Source: Cucumis sativus
Taxonomy: Eukaryota > Streptophyta > Magnoliopsida > Cucurbitales > Cucurbitaceae
NCBI RefSeq assembly: GCF_000004075.3
Contig: NC_026657.2
Span: forward strand, 36,876,732-36,940,731
Direction: 5' to 3'
Length of the DNA stretch: 64,000 bases
Part shown: positions 10,601-64,000 of the stretch, piece after piece
Numbering within the stretch: the stretch's first letter is position 1
Layout of the letters: every line of letters begins with the position of its first letter
The notes under the pieces: generated by a model
What the model was told of the DNA's origin: nothing
Seen by the model: the letters and a program-made list of their open reading frames with translations, nothing else
Databases searched by the model: none
Program-made: the position numbers and the translations under genes

Positions 10601-11745
10601 CTCTTGTTGACTACGACTCCCTGGAAATAATTTCCAGATAAATCGATTGACCCATGCAATTCAAGCGGTAGATTTAAATGACCATAAAGAACATTATTTG
10701 AGAAGTTGAATACAACCACACTGTTTGGCACAAAACTTGGCAAGAAACCCGTAAAATTATTGTTGGATACATCAAGAAACTTCAATTTGGGGTGTGATAA
10801 CAAGTCATGATTCAGACGGCCATCAAGTCTATTTCCTCTCAAAACCAAAATTTCCAACTGAGCAAGGCTTCGAAACAAATCAACCGGCAAAGGACCCTCT
10901 AAGCCATTATCTCCAATATTCATCTTTTCCAAATTCCTCAACCCCCTCAAATCCACAGGGAGCGCACCCGTCAGTGAATTCTTACCGAGATCAAGCACTA
11001 GTAATTCTGATAGGTTACCCAATTCACTTGGTACGGAGGACGTTAAACTATTGTCCGAAAGATCCAACAATTGCAGTTTCTTAAGAGTGCTTATACTGGG
11101 TGGGATAGGTCCAGACAAAAAATTCGAGGCAAGTTCAAGCCGTCTGAGATTGTTAAGTGATGAAAGAAATGGAGGTATTGACCCAGTAAGCAGATTTCTC
11201 GAGACATCAAGAACAGATAGTTGAGATAACAGTCCTAAAGCCGAAGGCATAATCCCAGTAAGACTATTACCAGACAAATAAAGATCGGTAAGCTTACTTA
11301 AATTGCCAATAGAGGAAGGAATTGAGCCAACAATCGAAGAGGAGCGTAGATCAAGCACTTGAAGCTCAACGAGAGACTGACCAAACCAGTCCGGAATGGA
11401 CCCAGGAAGCAAAAACCCAGAGGCATTGAACAAAACCAAGGAGGTAAAATTAGCTAGCGCATCGACGGCGAAACGAGGGCTGACCTGTCCAATCCGAGTT
11501 CGCCTCAGACCCGACACAGTGATCCCAACAACTCGACCACCTTTGCACTTAACTCCACTCCAATCGGAACAGGGGTTGGCTTTTATTGGCCAATCTCTGC
11601 TTCTTAACCCTAACGATGACCTGAGATAGAGTAACGCCGTCCACTCTGTACTGGAGTTCAACCACTCCTTCTGACCTAAACCAAACTGAATTAACAACAA
11701 TACGACTACAAGTAGCAAATACCGCCGATGAGCTTGAACTTCCAT
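7664..11745 (-). CDS. LRR receptor-like kinase, At2g16250 type, probable pseudokinase, 4 exons
   Basis: Plasma-membrane receptor-like protein of 882 aa. Exons: 9818-11745, 9414-9542, 8643-8665 (only 23 nt) and 7664-8232, totalling 883 codons. The signal peptide is about residues 1-24 (LLLVVVLLLIQFGLG). An LRR N-terminal cap contains NPCSDWSGVKC. About ten leucine-rich repeats span 126-380 with LDLSDNSLT-type units. The transmembrane helix is about 437-463, and the kinase-like domain runs from about 515. The beta-3 lysine (VVVKKV, K542) and HRD (642-644) are present. However, the glycine loop is KHGHSGDLYKG, HRDxKxxN reads HRDVQASS, and DFG is replaced by SLS (662-664), so catalysis is doubtful. 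The C-terminal tail is Ser/Arg-rich (LRTTSSRRSWSAAFHGSWRH). Ligand and partners are unknown. Similarity to At2g16250 is from memory. Confidence 0.93.
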
Positions 11746-31600: not shown

Positions 31601-31692
31601 CATCAGAAAATGGCAGCAAAAAAGGAAAAAAACAATCGAGCACTGATCTGGAAAAATTGATAGTGTGTACGAGGGGGAGTTGATTTGATAGG
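28621..31692. other. Intergenic stretch upstream of the first RADIALIS-like gene
   Basis: Mostly AT-rich, no gene recognised. The last few hundred bases should hold the promoter and 5' UTR of the following gene. Confidence 0.4.
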
Positions 31693-32466
31693 ATGGGGTC
31701 TGGATCCAATTGGACGGCCAAACAGAACAAAGTGTTTGAAAATGCTTTAGCCATCTACGACAAAGACACGCCGGAGCGGTGGCAGAATCTGGCCAGAGCC
31801 GTCGGGGGCAAGACCGCGGAGGAAGTGAAACGACACTACGAAAGGTTGGTTGAAGATGTGAACAAGATCGAAACCGGCCAAGTTCCTTTCCCTAATTACA
31901 GAAGGTCCGTACCTGCCGCCCGAGGATTTTACTTTCTTGACCAAGAACAAAGGTAAGCTAAAACAAACCCCTCCCCATTTTCTTTTCTATTTTAAATTTT
32001 AATTTTGGGGTAATGTATTTCTAAAATCCGCTTTTAATTATAATTTGTTTTCTTGTTTTGAAAATAATAATAATAACAACAACAACGACAAAACTAAAAC
32101 TTTTGCACTCAAAACTTTGTTCTATGTTTCCCAAATGTAGCCAAAAGTTTTAACTGAGTATTTCAAGGAAAAGCTACTAAGAAAGTATATTACTGATATC
32201 TAATTGAGTCTAAAAGGAGGAGACTTCATTTTCAACTTTGGTTATAGTTTCATTCATTCACCAGGATGGTTTGTTTTACCTTTCTACAAGATTTAATTAA
32301 GAGCGATGATTTTGATTAATTAATTAATTAAGTACAACAAACACATATACATATATATTAACTTAGAGGAAAGCATTAAATTAGTTAAAAATTGATATAA
32401 ATTGTAATGTGATGTAATTCTGGTTTATGTGATTAATGCAGGATGAGGAGTCTGCAATTGAATTGA
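31693..32466 (+). CDS. RADIALIS-like single-SANT/MYB transcription factor, 2 exons
   Basis: Small nuclear protein of 94 aa in the RADIALIS/RSM family. These proteins have one I-box-like SANT domain and act by binding or titrating other MYB proteins, for example in flower and seedling development. Exon 1 is 31693-31952 and exon 2 is 32442-32466, with GT/AG splicing between CAAAG and GATGAGG. The SANT domain spans about residues 6-60: [20 protein letters not shown], then [20 protein letters not shown] and [11 protein letters not shown]. The tail has the usual GQVPFPNYR motif. The last exon contributes only the end of R plus MRSLQLN. ATG at 31693 is the only start that gives the family's short N-terminus. 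Which RL subgroup it belongs to is not resolved. Confidence 0.92.
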
Positions 32467-35227: not shown

Positions 35228-36447
35228 CAAAAAAGTTTTTGCAGTGCGTATTTGAAAGATGTTCAGGGTCAATAAGTGTTTCATGTTGTTTTCCATGGTG
35301 ATAGATTTTTATGTGTTGTTACTAGGCTTGATGGTGAACATACATGCTCAGTAGATGTTTCTTTAACAAATCATAGACAAACTATTTTTTCTATTATCAA
35401 GGACCTAATAAAGAAGAAAATAAATATATATGGGCCAGAGTTGAACACTTCTAAAGATATAGTTCATTATATTTGTTGTGAGCATGATTTGAATATTAGT
35501 TACCAAAAAGCTTGGCGTGCACATGAAACTGCATTTGATGAAGTCAAAGGATTTTCTGAAGACTCATTCAAGATGTTACCAACATTTGTGTACTTGTTGA
35601 ATTTGAACAACTGGGGTATGTTCGCAATATATACCCTTCGAGAAACAATATATACCCATGATGTACATATTATACATTATTCTTTGTACGAAAATATCCA
35701 TTTTTCATGTCCATGGATTCTATTATTGAAAAAGGTTGTCGGTGAAGGTAGATTCATCTATTTCTTTATGGCATTGTCTACTTCAATTTTTGGTTGGCAG
35801 AGTTGTAGTTGTTGTCTTGTTCTCTCTATTGATAGTATAAGTCTAAAAAATAAATATAGTGGTACTCTTTTAACTGGCTCCACACCTAGTGCTAATGATA
35901 AGATTTTCCTTTAACCTTTTGTGTTATTAATTTTGAGAGTGATTTTTCATGGACGTGGTTTTGCAAATGAAGAAAATATTAGGTGAAAAGAATGATGTTG
36001 TGATAGTTTGTGAAATTCATAAAAGTATATGTAAAGCCATAGAGGTAGTATTTCCAAATGTATTACATTGCATGTGCATAGTTCATTTACTAAGGAATCT
36101 AAAGTTGAGGTATAAAAGAATAGTTGATATTGTATTTCATGCATGTGGCAAAGCTTCTAATGCATTAGATTTGAACATGAGATGCCTCAATTCGAATCTG
36201 ATGCATCAGGTATATGCTAAAAGTTGGAATCAATTGATTTTTTTGAGATGTTTTCTCGTGCGTACTCACCCCATAAGAGATATACGGTGATGACCACTAA
36301 TATATATGAGTGTTTGAATTCGGCCATGCTTAAAGCTAGGAAGTTACCAATATCTTCCATGTTGGAGGTATTGTGAATAATGTTGCAAAAATGGTTGTTT
36401 GATAGAAGAAATGAAGTGTGGATACAAAATATGAATACTATGTCAAA
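35228..36447 (+). pseudogene. Mutator-like (MULE) transposase relic, copy 1
   Basis: Decayed MuDR-type transposase. In order it shows DGEHTCSVDVSLTNHRQ and NISYQKAWRAHE (N-terminal DNA-binding part), then FFMALSTSIFGWQ, SIDSISLKNKYSGTLLTGST (start of the DDE catalytic domain, first Asp retained), then in another frame SDFSWTWF, HKSICKAIEVVFPNVLHCMC and IVHLLRNLK, and finally TNIYECLNSAMLKARKLPIS and LEVL followed by a stop. At least one frameshift and several stops separate these pieces, so no active enzyme is made. The 3' part appears cut off by the LTR-like insertion starting at 36454. No terminal inverted repeats were identified. Confidence 0.82.
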
Positions 36448-38773: not shown

Positions 38774-38924
38774 CACAATTGATTCAAGTCCAGAGACCCG
38801 AAGAGTCCGAAGATATAAAGTTTTGTCCCGCCTGTAGAAGGTAGTGAAGTTGGGAGTGATCGCACCATTCAATATTCATCGGTTACGAGCTTCAACTTTC
38901 TAACTCATCGTTGAAGCAGGGAGC

Positions 38925-41900
38925 ATGGATGCTACTTCGTCTTCGTTTAAGGTACGCTCCGCTTTCAATCTTTCCTGCTTCCACGGTTGAATTTTCTGCC
39001 CTTTTCCGGCTTTGATCAAACCGAAATCGCCAGAGGCGTACAATCTCTCATCCACGAATCCATTTTTTCACTTTCCATCTCCTGCACCATGTGTTGAAGT
39101 TCAGGAACTCGTTTTCAAACTGTTTGCTCGTTTTTCGGCTGTTCATATGATAAGATTCTTCCAATCTACTTTCTTGGAATCGATATGTCGTCTCCGGTTA
39201 CCGATATGTAGCAGATATTTACTTGCCTTTTACAAGAAATGATGTCTGTTGCCTGTAGATATTCTTTGTTTTGTTTTGTTTTTTAAATTTGCAACGACTT
39301 CCTCTTTCAAAGACTGTAGGACGTTGCTGAGAGTGGAATGTTTAAAATCGTCTACCTCATTCAGATTTACAAAAGCATCAGTCGAAGTTGTAGAACGTCG
39401 TTTGTTTAGTATTTATCTAGATACTGATTACAATAGTTCAAGTCAAAATACTGTTGCAACTGCATAGTCTAGACTAAAGGAAGATTCTATTTGGGAAATG
39501 CTGAGAATACTTTTATAAATATCATGGCATCTCCAAACATTGTGAAGTTGTTCGTATTAAGAAAAAATTATTCAGCACTTAATTATCTATGGTATTCGCA
39601 ATGCTGTCAATTTCTGTTACTTATTGGTGATTATTTCACATTTCATTGATGTCTTCCTCAGATTTTGGACGATTTTCTAGATGTCTAATCTTTTCATCAA
39701 TAAAAAGGCCAATATGTTAATTAGAATTTTCCTCTATTTTAAATGCAAACTCGTGGGTTTGCTAAACGTTGCTGTGTGTGAAAATGTTCATAACCAATGT
39801 GGTGTGGTTTCTGTGATAGTGTTTTTATTGTATGTAACGGGTTCTGTTTGACAGATAATTTTGGGATCATCTTCAGTGGCACGTAGGAAAATATTATCTG
39901 AGATGGGTTATGAATTCACCATTATGGTATATTCTCTACCTAGATTTACTTACATGACCTGAAAACTCTACCTTCTCAGAATGTTTACCTTTTTCTCTCT
40001 CCCAAAATGAAGTCTGCAGATATCGATGAGAAGGCCATACGCAAAGAAAAGCCGGAAGAGTTGGTTGTGGCTCTTGCAGAAGCAAAGGTTAGGTGTCATC
40101 TTGGGATTAATTTGTGCTTCACCAATCACCATATTCTGACTGTGAAATTGCTACATGTTATATTGGTTCCTTTTTGTAAAATGCTTGTGCTACCTTTTGT
40201 AAATTGCCTGTGCTACATGTACAACGTCATCAAAAAATGATTTCAGATGTAGAATTTGTTGTTTGTTCCAAGCTAACATGACATCTAGGATTTAAAAACT
40301 TCTGTTAGCTGCATAATATTTTTAGAACCATCCTATAGTGGATGCAGTGATTTGCATAGTTGGGATATTATGCTTCAACAGTGAAGTACAAATAGTGTAC
40401 AAAAGTGGTAGATTTGAGTCATTTGACTAACCCTTCAAGCCAGGGACGTGGATTCAAAGCTAATGTGCTAGAAATGTGGCCACACTAATCTCTTTTGCAT
40501 CTATTTGTATTTTTTAATTTCCCCTTTTAAATCTCTATATAAAGTAAATTGGCATGTGATTACTTGTGCACGAGCATCTTGTATTAAGACAAGAGTTTCA
40601 TCTCAGGCTGATGCCATCATATCCAATTTACAAAACATTCATACACATGAAAAGGAAGCAGAACCAACAGTTTTGATTGCTGCTGACACAGTATGTTTTC
40701 CTATGTTGGTATCAGTCGTTATTATCTCTGTTTTAAAATATGGTGAAGATGGCTTGTTATCACATGAGAACATTTATAAATTGAGGATACAGTTACAACA
40801 GCCCACTTTAAGTTAGGATGTGTTTCCACAGAATTAATCTGTTTCAGTGTGCAACTTTTTCGTTACTCTCTGAAGTCCTAAGTGTAACTTCTTCATGCTA
40901 AAGCTTCTTCCATTTTCACAATTTTAGTATGGGGTTTGATTGTGGTAGTAGGTTACTTTGGTTTATTTCTTACCTGATGGATATTTATTGTCAGGCAGAT
41001 GCCATCTTAGGAAGACTTTCCACAGATGATTTTATGAAAGATGCAGAGCCAACATTGTTGATTACTTCTGATCAAGTATATCTATCAAGTCCTTTGACAT
41101 ATGTGTCCGATTTTATATGTTTTAAGTGATTTCTTAATTTTTTGTGCAATGTTCATTGCACATCTTTCTCACCTGACGCATTAAAAATAATAAGGGATTT
41201 GTTGCCTTATTCATTGCATCTCTAAAAAAAGGCGACAGTAAAAACTAGAAAGTTTATTAGAATGATTTTCATATGTAACATCTGTTTTTTTTTTTTTTTT
41301 TCTTATATTTTGTGAATTTTGAGAAATTTGCTTGAATCCAGCCAATAATGACAAGTTGATGCTTGATGGTCTTTCCTAAGTCTCTGTCTCCTTCACCGAT
41401 AATCAGATTAAACATATTCCCATTTCCATGTGAAAAACCTGCTGCCGCTCATTGTGCCTGTCTGTGTTATTGTACCCATTTACCTTGAGATAGAAGTTGA
41501 TGGAACAATCCTCTTGTTATATTTTTATTCATAGACCTGTTGTCGATTGTATCCTCAATGCATAAATGGTCTTTTTGTGATAACGTATGCCATATCAACA
41601 CCTTGTTCTGTTTGCAAAGTTCCTCTTAGACATATTTTCTTACTTCTATTGGTAATTGATGTGGAGGTGGTGATCTATGAAGGTGTGATCAGAGAAAAAC
41701 CAGCCAGCAAGGAGGAAGCACGACAATTTTTGAAAGGTTTATTTAGATAATAGTTATGCGTTTCAATTTTCTTTACTATTTCTTGAATGTCAGTTCAATA
41801 AAAAAATTATGTTGCAGATTATTCAGGAGGGCATGCAGCCACACTTGGATCCGTACTTGTTACAAACCTCAAAACAGGATTTAGGAAAGGGGAATGGGAT

Positions 41901-43248
41901 CGAGTAGAGGTAAATATATATACATGTTTGTTTATCTGTTGATGATCTTTTTATTTCTCGTTTTCTAGTTCCCGTTTCTCTCGATATTTTTCCTATATTA
42001 TATTAACGTAAAAACAGATCGTTGAGACTGCTACATTTTAATTTACTAAACAAATAGGCCATATCCTACTTATATAAACCTAACATAGACTTCTTCAAGA
42101 CAACTCGATTGGTATGTGCTCTGCTGTGGGACCAGCAGAATAGGTGCAAGATACTGTTTTTTTTCTAAAGAGAAAGGAGCTCCTGTTCTTATCTCTAGTA
42201 CCTAGATGAGACTTGTAGAAGATTTTGGTTTTGTTTTAGGTCATGAAATGGTTAAAATCAATTTTGTCATTTTGAAACCACAATGAAACATGTTTTTAAC
42301 CGAAACTTTCATTTACAAGTGTAAAATTTACTATTAAATTTAGTTTGAGTGATTAAAAATGTATTTTAGAGTGATTCCGTGATGTTTATGATTTTAAATT
42401 TGCTTTCAAACATTCACTTACAATACCACACTTTTTTTTTTTTGTTTTCTTATGCTGTTCAATGTTGACATGTGCTCTTGCAGATCTTTTTCAATGAAAT
42501 ACCCGATGAAGTCATCAACAAGCTGGTAGGGATTTCACTTTATAGCTGGTTGTGTTTTCATTGGAAAACGGGAACATTGTATCTTTTGTGATCATGGTTT
42601 TATTTTTCTTTTCATTTACGTTTCAGGTCGAGGAGGGGACTGTGCTCTATGTCGCTGGAGGGCTGATTATCGAGCATCCTTTGATTTTACCCTATGTGAA
42701 AGAAGTGGTTAGCTTTTTTTCTTCCTTTCCTACTGGCAATGACCTCAAGCTAATGATATTGTTTCTCCTGCTCGCATTCTGGTCGTCTTTGATCTGAACC
42801 TTGAATAAAATATTCCTATATGTCCTCCTAGTGGTCTGAATTCCATGAATATGATGTGCATGGCATGCATGTATGTGATAATGAGAGCTCATACAACACA
42901 AATATACACACTTAGATATCATGAAACTGAAATTACATCATACAGATGTGATGACGATTGATATAATTGTTAACATGGGTATTTAGGGCCTAAAAAAGAG
43001 AGGTATCTTGAAAAGGCTGTACCTTGTTGTGAAGAAGGAAAAAAAGACAGCCATAGTGGTTACGTTTGTAATATATTTTAATTGCATATGCACACACAAG
43101 CCTCTTCTGTCTGAAAACTAGATATAGTTTTATTACATACATATGGGCTGATAACCCAAACTTTGGATCTCTACAGGTAGGGACGACAGATAGTGTGATG
43201 GGTCTTCCCAAGGCTTTGACTGAGAAACTCTTGAAGGAAGCCATGTAG
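38925..43248 (+). CDS. Maf-family nucleotide pyrophosphatase with two alternative catalytic exons
   Basis: House-cleaning enzyme that hydrolyses noncanonical or modified nucleoside triphosphates to monophosphate and pyrophosphate. Exons: 38925-38951, 39855-39926, 40013-40087, then 40607-40690 or 40995-41075, 41667-41736, 41818-41909, 42484-42525, 42627-42707 and 43177-43248. Using the 84-nt exon gives 204 aa; using the 81-nt exon gives 203 aa. Visible motifs are the N-terminal phosphate loop LGSSSVARRKIL, SADIDEKAIRKEKPEELV, the catalytic Asp in either LIAADT or LITSDQ, then VVIYEGVIREKP, SGGHAATLGSV, and the C-terminal AGGLIIEHPLI and GTTDSVMGLP. The two alternative exons both begin with ADAI and end at the same splice phase. 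Both have good GT/AG sites, so inclusion should be either/or. Housekeeping-type promoter motifs lie upstream. The closest Arabidopsis gene is probably At5g42770, from memory. Confidence 0.93.
40607..40690 (+). other. Maf alternative exon a (ADT motif)
   Basis: 84-nt, phase 0/0 exon encoding ADAIISNLQ, HEKEAEPTVLIAADT. Acceptor CTCAG, donor GTATGT. It carries the alanine-aspartate-threonine form of the catalytic motif. Confidence 0.88.
40995..41075 (+). other. Maf alternative exon b (SDQ motif)
   Basis: 81-nt, phase 0/0 exon encoding ADAILGRLSTDDFMKDAEPT then LLITSDQ. Acceptor GTCAG, donor GTATAT. It is homologous to exon a, separated from it by 304 nt, and carries the serine-aspartate-glutamine form of the motif. 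Confidence 0.88.
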
Positions 43249-44016
43249 GTGATATGAATAATATTTTACATTTCACCTTTAACTTTTTTTTTCTAATCAA
43301 CATTTCTTTCCTTTCCATTGAGAAACACTCAGCCTAACCTCACAATCTATTATTCTTGCTTCTTGTGGATTGGTAACACTCAACTATTATTTGTATTAGC
43401 AAATTTCAGCTAAAAATTTAAGAGCAAACTTGTATGTTGTATCTCTTCTGAATTGTTCTCCCTTTGTAGTTGGTATGATCTGATCTTGGTTGTTTCGTTC
43501 ATACTACTAGTAAGTGTAGAAAATAACAATTAGATTGTATTTCTAAACTAATGCATCTAGCAAACATGAGTGAAGGTCTTGTCGCATAATTTTTAACCAC
43601 CTGTTGTTGAGAATTAAGATCAACTTTTTGTTAATTCGTATTGTTTTTATTATTTATCATTAAATCTTGAAAGGTGTACGTATGAGCATATTTCCACTCA
43701 GAAACTAATTGATCGTACATGTAGTATGCCACTATTTAGAAAATGAATGGAGGGATGACGTGTAGGTCAAAATATTTGAATTGACGAACCAATCAAATAA
43801 TTAGGGTAAGGCACTTCAAGGGTCTTGCAACACAAGGGAATTTCAAAGAGTACGGGCGGCACAGACGTTTTTGTATATTGAGGGGGAAGATCCATATTTA
43901 CTATTTTGCAGTGCATCATGGTTCTCTTGATTGAGTTGTTGCAAAGTGATAAATAGGCTTGCTTTCCAACACGCAGGTTACCAAAAGAAAAACATAACAG
44001 AAAGAAAACAACCTTC
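43249..44016. other. Tail-to-tail spacer between the Maf gene and the sugar transporter
   Basis: Holds the two converging 3' UTRs. No other feature recognised. Confidence 0.6.
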
Positions 44017-61869: not shown

Positions 61870-62373
61870 TCAGTAGTCTGTTAATACATTTCTGCATACT
61901 AAACCATAATTTAACAACGGGCTACGCTATAAAATCGGCTCAATATATTTCTATAGGAATTATAGGACATAAGTTTCTTGTGATGGACATTTATTCTAAT
62001 GTACTAGTAGAAAGGAGAAGATTACTTAGGATAGGACACAGGGTTTGGAGTGACTTCGTCGGAGAGGAAATGTTCAGCAAGTTGGATATTACCTCTGCTG
62101 GTCAGCATACCCTCTGCCATTACATCCAGCGTTCTTGTAAAGGGGTATTTGGACTTGACCAGCTTCTATTTTTCTGACATCTCGTACTAGTAACTCATAA
62201 AGCCTTCTTGCTTCCTCAGCGGTTTTCCCACCACCAACAGCCCTCGCTACTTTCTCAAAACGGTCTGGTGTGTCCTCGTCAAAGAAGGCCAATGCCTCCT
62301 CAAATTTCTTGTTTTCCTTTTTGGTCCAGGATGAGTAAAAGCCATGTGTCGACGTGACAGAGCTTGACGCCAT
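61870..62373 (-). CDS. RADIALIS-like single-SANT protein, divergent, 2 exons
   Basis: Exon 1 (62093-62373) encodes MASSSVTSTHGFYSSWTKKE, then KKFEEALAFFDEDTPDRFEK, VARAVGGGKTAEEARRLYEL and LVRDVRKIEAGQV. This is a clear RADIALIS/RSM-family SANT domain with the short Ser-rich N-terminus of the RL5/RL6 group. The donor after CAGAG has the same phase and protein position (QQR) as the gene at 31.7 kb. A fitting second exon is 61870-61891 (acceptor TATGCAG), adding NVLTDY and a stop for 100 aa in all. That exon is uncertain because related proteins usually end in MRxLxL-like residues. Compared with relatives, the second core Trp is Phe (DRFEK), there is an extra Gly (VGGGKT) and the usual RRHYE reads RRLYE. 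It probably acts, like the family, by protein-protein contacts in the nucleus. Confidence 0.85.
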
Positions 62374-64000
62374 TATTTTCAGTTAGTTTGGCACTGAAAA
62401 AGGGGAATGAATGATGGTAGTTGACAAAGAAGGTTGGGGAAAAGTTTGTCTCAATAAGTGGGGAAAGAAGGAAGAAGTTGAGGGATGGTAAGAGCATGAT
62501 TGTCCTTTGCTCCTTATATACTGGAGGTGGAGTGTTTGTGTAGTGGGATCGATGCAAGTTGACGAATATATATTTAAGGCTAAAAGATATGATTCATTTT
62601 GTTGAGCAGACGCTAGAAAGAGTGTGGAGAGGACTGGCTGTAGTGAAATCCTTTAAAAAGTCTCTTTTCTTTTCATTTAAAATATCATCAGCAAGTAGAA
62701 TTTTCTCGAGAATTTACAGCCTGGTGGAGAATTAGATCCAATTCTTAGCCTATCTCTTGACACATAGATGCGCCCATAACAAAAGTTTCAACCCAGCTTT
62801 GAATGTGTAAAACAGGCTAGTGAAACTTACCCTTCCTTTTTATGGTTGGTTTTCTCTTTCTTTTTCTCATTCAGTTGCATGCTATAATATACCATACATA
62901 TTCCATCTTTAGTAATGATTATTCCTTCTCTCTTGGAAATAGATACTCAACTACTACTAAAATGACTTTATCTACAGTTTCATGGAAATGACAGCTGCTT
63001 GGGAGCAAAAGATTCATCTTTCTATGCGCATACACACAGGTTTAAATATGTTTTAGTGCCTAAACATCTATCCTTTTTTCTTTTGTTATTGCGATCTCCA
63101 AATTTTTTTAAATTCTGATTTTATTCTTCGAATCAATATTCATATTCATTTCGATAATAATTCAGTTTTAAAATGTTTGTTGGACTTCAGTTTTCTATAG
63201 ATTTTTTTATTGATTAAGTCCCTGTCTTAAAATTTTACTCTAATTTATTGAAAGTAGGTTCTCACACACCATCAATTATCTATGTATCATAACTTGAAAA
63301 TATACCTTTTAGATATATAAGAATTATGACTTAGAACTGAAGGCTGTGAGAACTGAAGTTGAAGTTTAATATAAAACTTTAATGTGAGCGGTTAGGCTAT
63401 CAATTTAGAAGCTGGTATAAGCTATTAAAGTTGCAAATCCATTTTTCTACTTATTTTATACTTTTTACATTTATCGAAAACATAGGATCCAAGTTGTTTG
63501 GGACTTGAATCGCATGTATGTGGAGTGGGTTAGAGGTTTGGTGTTCCAACTCTCTAAACCACTCGTTTATACCATAAATAGTATTTTGTAATCTCCAATT
63601 AATTAGCTACAATTATCATCATTTCGAAATTATTTTTAGTACAATATTTACTATTTGCTATACTAAAAGAATCATTTTTAGTACAATACTCATTACTTGC
63701 TATAATTTTTAGTATTTTACATTTATTTTCTTTTTTCTTTACATTACACCTTTTACTATTTCTTACTTAAACTCAATTAGCATACATCTCAAACACATAG
63801 TATTATAATTTAAATTATAACAATCTACCCCTAAACACAAACTATTATTGTGCACAAATTATATCATAACTACTTAAACTCCAACTTTTCATTTTAATTT
63901 CAATATATTAATGTCAATCAATAGCTCAAACGGTGACTAATTCTAATAAAAATAAGTGGGAATGTTCTAGAAGTTTGAGAATTAAAATAAAAGCAAATAA
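62374..64000. other. Upstream region of the second RADIALIS-like gene and spacer
   Basis: The promoter and leader of the gene lie at about 62374-62700 (minus strand). The rest is AT-rich. Near 63631-63702 two diverged adjacent units share TTTTTAGTACAATA and TTGCTATA. No other gene is seen to the window end. Confidence 0.4.

Follow-up and report, generated by a model that had tools for sequence, protein, structure and literature searches.

Why should a plant gene carry, side by side, two exons for the same piece of its active site? The question is raised by a Maf pyrophosphatase gene of cucumber (Cucumis sativus) that lies in a window of 64,000 nucleotides (nt; contig NC_026657.2, forward-strand positions 36,876,732 to 36,940,731) from a genome of 226.6 megabases. 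The window is this whole stretch, and all coordinates below count from its first letter. The gene spans 38925-43248 on the + strand and has nine exons in each form that uses a single version of exon 4, or ten counting both versions. Exons 4a (ADT) and 4b (SDQ) are homologous phase 0/0 exons of this one gene, and each encodes the helix-strand unit with the catalytic Asp. Our reading, which we hold with moderate confidence, is that these are tandem versions of exon 4 kept most likely because the resulting pockets differ in substrate. The exons are as follows.

38925..38951, + strand: coding exon 1 with the start codon (splice model; the protein is P0014)
39855..39926, + strand: exon 2, SxxR nucleotide loop with S16, A18 and R19 (splice model)
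40013..40087, + strand: exon 3, with Glu39 of DIDEK and Lys58 (splice model and alignment)
40607..40690, + strand: exon 4a, 84 nt, phase 0/0, ADAI...VLIAADT, with the catalytic Asp and Thr
40995..41075, + strand: exon 4b, 81 nt, phase 0/0, ADAI...LLITSDQ, with the catalytic Asp and Gln (exact match to A0A0A0LDW9)
41667..41736, + strand: exon 5, with the Lys of REKP (splice model and alignment)
41818..41909, + strand: exon 6, with a second acceptor at 41827 (splice model)
42484..42525, + strand: exon 7 (splice model)
42627..42707, + strand: exon 8, AGGLIIEHP, whose Glu is subfamily residue 3 (splice model)
43177..43248, + strand: exon 9 with the stop codon (splice model)

The original prediction, made from the letters of the window, had described two neighbouring exons of these lengths and phases with good splice sites, belonging to one gene with two catalytic exons, and both parts of that description held in the splice model and its protein matches. 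Exon 4a is translated as ADAIISNLQNIHTHEKEAEPTVLIAADT and exon 4b as ADAILGRLSTDDFMKDAEPTLLITSDQ; both have GT-AG sites in cucumber, and the intron between them is 304 nt long. The reading frame is kept in all four combinations, with protein lengths of 204 amino acids (aa) for 4a, 203 aa for 4b, 231 aa for both and 176 aa for neither. The gene model has independent confirmation, as the 4b-only protein is identical, letter for letter, to UniProt A0A0A0LDW9 of Cucumis sativus (P0014), and the 4a-only protein shares 99% identity with P0004, a RefSeq isoform of Cucumis melo. The window was also scanned for an AG, an open unit of 72-99 nt ending in D-T or D-Q, and a GT. Four such units were found on the + strand and none on the - strand; two of the four are exons 4a and 4b, and the remaining pair shares overlapping sequence at 11423-11518. 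The exon pair is not a product of chance, since such units are scarce and the pair recurs in 53 relatives that were found without the motif. Matches to the splice-site consensus gave no clear ranking of 4a against 4b.

Both forms were recognized by Pfam PF02545 (Maf), with 149.0 bits for ADT and 146.5 bits for SDQ against a cut-off of 27; with NCBIfam TIGR00172 they scored 110.7 and 104, under its cut-off of 117.15. Residues S16, R19, E39, K58, D84 and K96 are invariant in 69 aligned plant proteins, chosen from the set of 234 described below. According to the available portion of Tchigvintsev et al. (2013, PMC3899018), the YhdE subfamily has residues R-T-Q and acts on dTTP, UTP and modified pyrimidines, and the YceF subfamily has W-Q-E (aromatic-Gln-Glu) and acts on 7-methyl-GTP (m7GTP). 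The SDQ form reads A18-Q85-E169, which agrees with the YceF motif at residues 2 and 3 and departs from it at residue 1; the ADT form reads A-T-E and agrees with the YhdE motif at residue 2 alone. Exon choice thus swaps residue 2 between T and Q while residue 3 stays Glu, so that the ADT form has a hybrid site, as had been predicted. The Gln forms part of the floor of the base pocket, so a swap at this position could readily change the substrate. Use of 4a alone would give an A-T-E site, use of 4b alone an A-Q-E site, and use of both a third form. The Q pocket would prefer an m7GTP-like nucleotide and the T pocket another modified nucleoside triphosphate, perhaps a pyrimidine. A substrate difference between the ADT and SDQ forms is plausible, and we infer that the two pockets have different substrates. 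Our literature search turned up no plant Maf protein whose substrate had been measured.

To see how relatives use the two exons, we draw on three protein searches, of which the best 120 matches each (out of 1,652, 1,831 and 1,703) together gave 234 distinct proteins. A motif parse took 232 of these (P0072 and P0131 failed); since it relies on an exon-4 motif, any form lacking both exons would have escaped it. Exon 4 ends in T in 89 of the parsed proteins, in Q in 77 and in I in 13, and both exons are present in 53. A motif-free parse, from exon 3 to the EKP stretch of exon 5, took 230 of the 234 (P0128, P0131, P0133 and P0224 failed) and returned 53 exon-4 regions of double length, with D-T followed by D-Q in every one. 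When proteins were grouped by identical sequence outside exon 4, there were 43 groups of at least two, a few of them spanning sister species. T-only and Q-only proteins stand together in 21 of these groups, and 12 of the 21 also hold a both-exon protein. Among the melon isoforms, X2 has both exons, X3 is T and X4 is Q. Two both-exon proteins come from short contigs, P0028 from one of 1,036 bases and P0145 from one of no more than 1,119. We take these to be transcript contigs because they are far shorter than a gene of such structure (4.3 kilobases, kb, in cucumber).

AlphaFold models of the both-exon form place the SDQ strand in the core and leave the ADT loop disordered. Going by these models, the double form would fold around the 4b strand, with a Q site, and the 4a strand would lie in a disordered loop of ~29 residues. 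We also noted that the 21 nt directly 5' of exon 4b (40974-40994) read in frame as LMDIYCQ. Similar inserts occur at the same place in some both-exon proteins, namely LMETSSQ in Vitis (P0023) and LMETSQ in Rosaceae (P0039, P0055, P0064), and an upstream 4b acceptor seems to be used in these Vitis and Rosaceae proteins.

Residues D85, T86, T110, D112 and Q113 are invariant in the 40 of the 53 both-exon proteins that were aligned. Mean pairwise identity in 39 both-exon proteins is 0.627 for 4a, 0.687 for 4b and 0.83-0.84 for the flanks; in 14 chosen tandem genes it is 0.57 for 4a, 0.62 for 4b and 0.82 for the body. For single-exon genes, used as a control, exon 4 identity is 0.71 in 8 eudicot T genes (body 0.83), 0.65 in 16 non-eudicot Q genes (body 0.80) and 0.65 in 10 monocot T/I genes (body 0.85). 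The view that neither exon is relaxed was dropped after this control (0.57 and 0.62 versus 0.65-0.71). As judged from the alignments, both exons have been kept for a long time with their catalytic residues intact.

The original prediction proposed dating the duplication from the Maf genes of other plants. A recent duplication within the cucurbits was ruled out by both-exon proteins in Papaver, Macleaya, Aquilegia, Macadamia, Cornus, Vitis and the rosids. A tree of 62 chosen proteins, calculated with exon 4 left out, has a single clade (96/88) for the tandem-exon genes, which come from Proteaceae, Ranunculales and core eudicots; 7 of the 22 rows of this clade are single-form proteins placed there by their body. 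Since the tandem-exon genes group together in this way, the duplication probably goes back at least to the crown eudicots, which are above 100 million years old. Nelumbo, with T and Q proteins on different scaffolds, falls outside the tandem clade with weak support. A tree of the exon alone (27 columns) held too little signal to tell apart two origins of 4b, as a copy of 4a or by capture from a Q gene.

Non-eudicot flowering plants seem to keep the two versions on separate genes, and no tandem pair was found in named non-eudicot proteins among the matches listed. Nymphaea and Typha each have Q and I proteins on different contigs, Persea has Q and I genes with neighbouring numbers, and Elaeis, Ananas and Anthurium have Q and I or T proteins whose bodies differ. 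Amborella shows Q alone among the matches listed, and several other non-eudicots likewise show one kind. The tree unites the T/I genes of monocots in a single clade (100/98), and the I genes of Nymphaea and the magnoliids adjoin the Q genes of their own lineages, a pattern of which gene conversion could be the source. Forcing all 13 non-eudicot T/I genes together, a group picked after inspection of the tree, made it 47 log units worse (p of the approximately unbiased test, p-AU, 0.022). Among 32 bacterial relatives, taken from one scan with the plant alignment, 19 have D-Q, 1 E-Q, 6 D-L, 5 D-T and 1 D-G; given D-Q in 19 of the 32, Q is likely the ancestral state in this Maf branch. T together with Glu at residue 3 was found in one of the 32 (L028). 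These relatives (L010-L041) are mostly Patescibacteria, with identity of at best 49%. Cucumber has a second Maf gene, on contig C4 (L009 1537-4758), with a single exon 4 ending in TADT, and no second exon-4 unit was found in the introns neighbouring that exon. A Cinnamomum protein of 351 aa (P0003) consists of two joined Maf copies, the second lacking exon 4, and is probably a fused model of two adjacent genes.

How, then, are the two exons used? The original prediction took splicing to be either/or. In its strict version, which we now regard as improbable, 4a or 4b is included and never both, and the 231-aa forms are annotation artefacts. The two exons do carry the usual marks of mutual exclusion, being homologous neighbours of equal phase and similar length (84 and 81 nt); nine of the 43 identical-body groups have T-only and Q-only proteins and no both-exon form, and joint inclusion would double the helix-strand unit. 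Yet both exons occur together in 53 of the 232 parsed proteins, melon P0008 and P0009 among them, and the contigs of P0028 and P0145 are too short for a genomic copy with cucumber-like introns. The double form is moreover in frame and foldable in the best model, and the 304-nt intron is long enough for splicing. As regards features that might enforce exclusion, we found one strong pairing, around 4b only (see below), beside this intron length and the GT-AG sites. Because both-exon isoforms are annotated and stand on contigs of ~1 kb, relatives probably do include the two exons jointly, and strict mutual exclusion lacks support. Joint inclusion, if routine, had been named in advance as evidence against either/or splicing, and orthologs, melon among them, are annotated with both-exon proteins besides ADT-only and SDQ-only ones. 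Far less credible still is that one exon is a decaying, unused duplicate. The sole Cucumis sativus row among the matches listed is the SDQ form, in a list whose 90% identity clusters hide near-identical rows, and 4a is the more variable copy (0.57 versus 0.62). Decay is contradicted by the intact catalytic residues in both exons of all 53 double forms, by the intact splice sites in cucumber, and by the T-only forms of melon and many other species.

A more serious possibility, though to our mind an unlikely one, is that the T and Q exons serve the same substrates, and that the pair is neutral or else adjusts amount, stability or the binding of partners. Ile stands at residue 2 in genes of monocots, Lauraceae and Nymphaea, so a change there is tolerated, and the YceF mutant Q70A has a near wild-type kcat/KM (PMC3899018, available portion). 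However, every one of the 53 double forms has T first and Q second, in exons most of whose other positions vary. A Q and a T/I form are both present in each of Nymphaea, Lauraceae, monocots and eudicots, and the test above, for that post hoc group, speaks against a single origin of all 13 T/I genes from non-eudicots. On comparison of the sequences, substrate switching appears the most likely reason for the upkeep of the pair. Several points weigh against it. In the same portion of PMC3899018, Q70A raises the KM for m7GTP from 32.8 to 173 µM and lowers kcat/KM from 3.7 × 10⁴ to 2.9 × 10⁴, and W12A and E154A have similarly mild effects (its Table 1). By analogy, residue 2 need not set specificity, and its change alone would not abolish m7GTP hydrolysis. 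The complete published subfamily motif is present in neither isoform, the annotated isoforms are mostly gene predictions, and AlphaFold gave five differing models of the double form, with a mean predicted local distance difference test score (pLDDT) from 77 down to 54. The non-catalytic part of the tandem exons, most of all in 4a, appears somewhat freer than in single-exon genes, a possible relaxation.

The strong pairing mentioned above is formed by an inverted repeat with the following arms.

40737..40802, + strand: left arm, in the 4a-4b intron, with 55 predicted pairs with the right arm
41536..41606, + strand: right arm, in the intron after 4b, with exon 4b in the loop

The duplex of these 55 predicted pairs, calculated for cucumber only, has -65.2 kcal/mol. 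In a 50x50 scan the best duplex was -43.7, and 0 of 60 dinucleotide shuffles were as strong; in a 70x70 scan it was -53.0, and 0 of 140 window placements of the same geometry were as strong, the runner-up having -48.5. The alignment score of the arms was 46, against at most 40 in 105 placements. The inverted repeat is the strongest pairing, not by a wide margin. Its helix is present in the minimum-energy fold of 40691-41666, and 0 of 20 shuffles were as stable. For the intron before 4a and the next two introns, 40 and 26 of 100 single-base shuffles paired as strongly, which means no excess. If formed, the helix would loop out exon 4b and favour the ADT form, and the inverted repeat may in this way have a role in 4b skipping. 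Intron pairing and looping is a known principle of mutually exclusive exons (PMC6071210, available text). Within the window the arms match only each other, apart from one 18-base stretch, and they may be a transposon pair. No Rfam matches at gathering scores were obtained in 38800-43400, and a literature search aimed at plant exons looped out by inverted repeats returned no paper that matched it in full.

We hypothesize, tentatively and as a scenario that is rather unlikely to hold in full, that eudicots, by an exon duplication >100 million years ago, condensed into a single gene two specificities that are spread over separate Maf genes in other angiosperms, that the helix at the Q exon sets the T/Q ratio, and that the double form functions as a Q enzyme whose loop is regulatory. 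A eudicot-wide exon pair that swaps a catalytic-loop residue would be unusual, which is our impression rather than the result of a survey. The swapped residue has already been named as a pocket determinant by the biochemistry of the family, and since the two states are on separate genes elsewhere, exon choice and gene duplication can be compared directly as possible answers to one problem. The isoforms stand in public annotation; discussion of the pair was not found, our literature search, in which supplements were not searchable, having returned no description of this Maf exon pair.

Other observations concern the rest of the gene and its surroundings. An alternative acceptor in exon 6 (41818-41826, after ATTATTCAG) would drop 9 nt, encoding DYS, and exon 6 without DYS was seen in melon isoforms X2, X5 and X6. 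Two frames at 31684-31953 and 62092-62382, one per strand, are similar by eye to single-MYB RADIALIS-like proteins, and frames at 35276-36287, upstream of the Maf gene, resemble, again by eye, a remnant of a MuDR-type transposase.

Among the closest known systems is the YceF subfamily (E. coli YceF; T. brucei Maf, PDB 2amh). The plant protein differs from it in that Ala (in some plants Ser, Pro or Thr) takes the place of an aromatic residue 1, in that the second plant exon puts Thr in place of Gln, and in having a eukaryotic gene of nine exons and a spare. Members of the YhdE subfamily (E. coli YhdE, B. subtilis Maf, human ASMTL-Maf) have, like the ADT form, Thr after the catalytic Asp; the ADT form lacks their Arg at residue 1 and has Glu for Gln at residue 3. 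Rice NAL22 is also a plant Maf-like protein, which its authors likewise fit to neither subfamily; its 322 aa hold two Maf domains, the available text says nothing of an alternative exon pair, and knockouts have narrower leaves and fewer transcripts of cell-division genes (PMC9962836). As to exon choice in plants generally, the original prediction had called mutually exclusive tandem exons rare. The available part of a 2014 paper has mutually exclusive genes in Arabidopsis thaliana as "not described at all", yet predicts 99 candidate exons (PMC3923563), which disputes that statement, and such exons are called frequent in plants too in the available text of PMC6071210. Dscam and 14-3-3zeta of insects and plant FLM/MAF1, a MADS-box gene unrelated to Maf, have, as here, adjacent homologous exons of equal phase with pairing intron elements nearby, which in cucumber are predicted ones. 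In contrast to FLM, whose cryptic exon is thought to be recent (PMC3266260, available text), a pair of the cucumber type spans the eudicots, and unlike in Dscam, 14-3-3zeta and FLM, joint inclusion is here widely annotated, with the frame kept.
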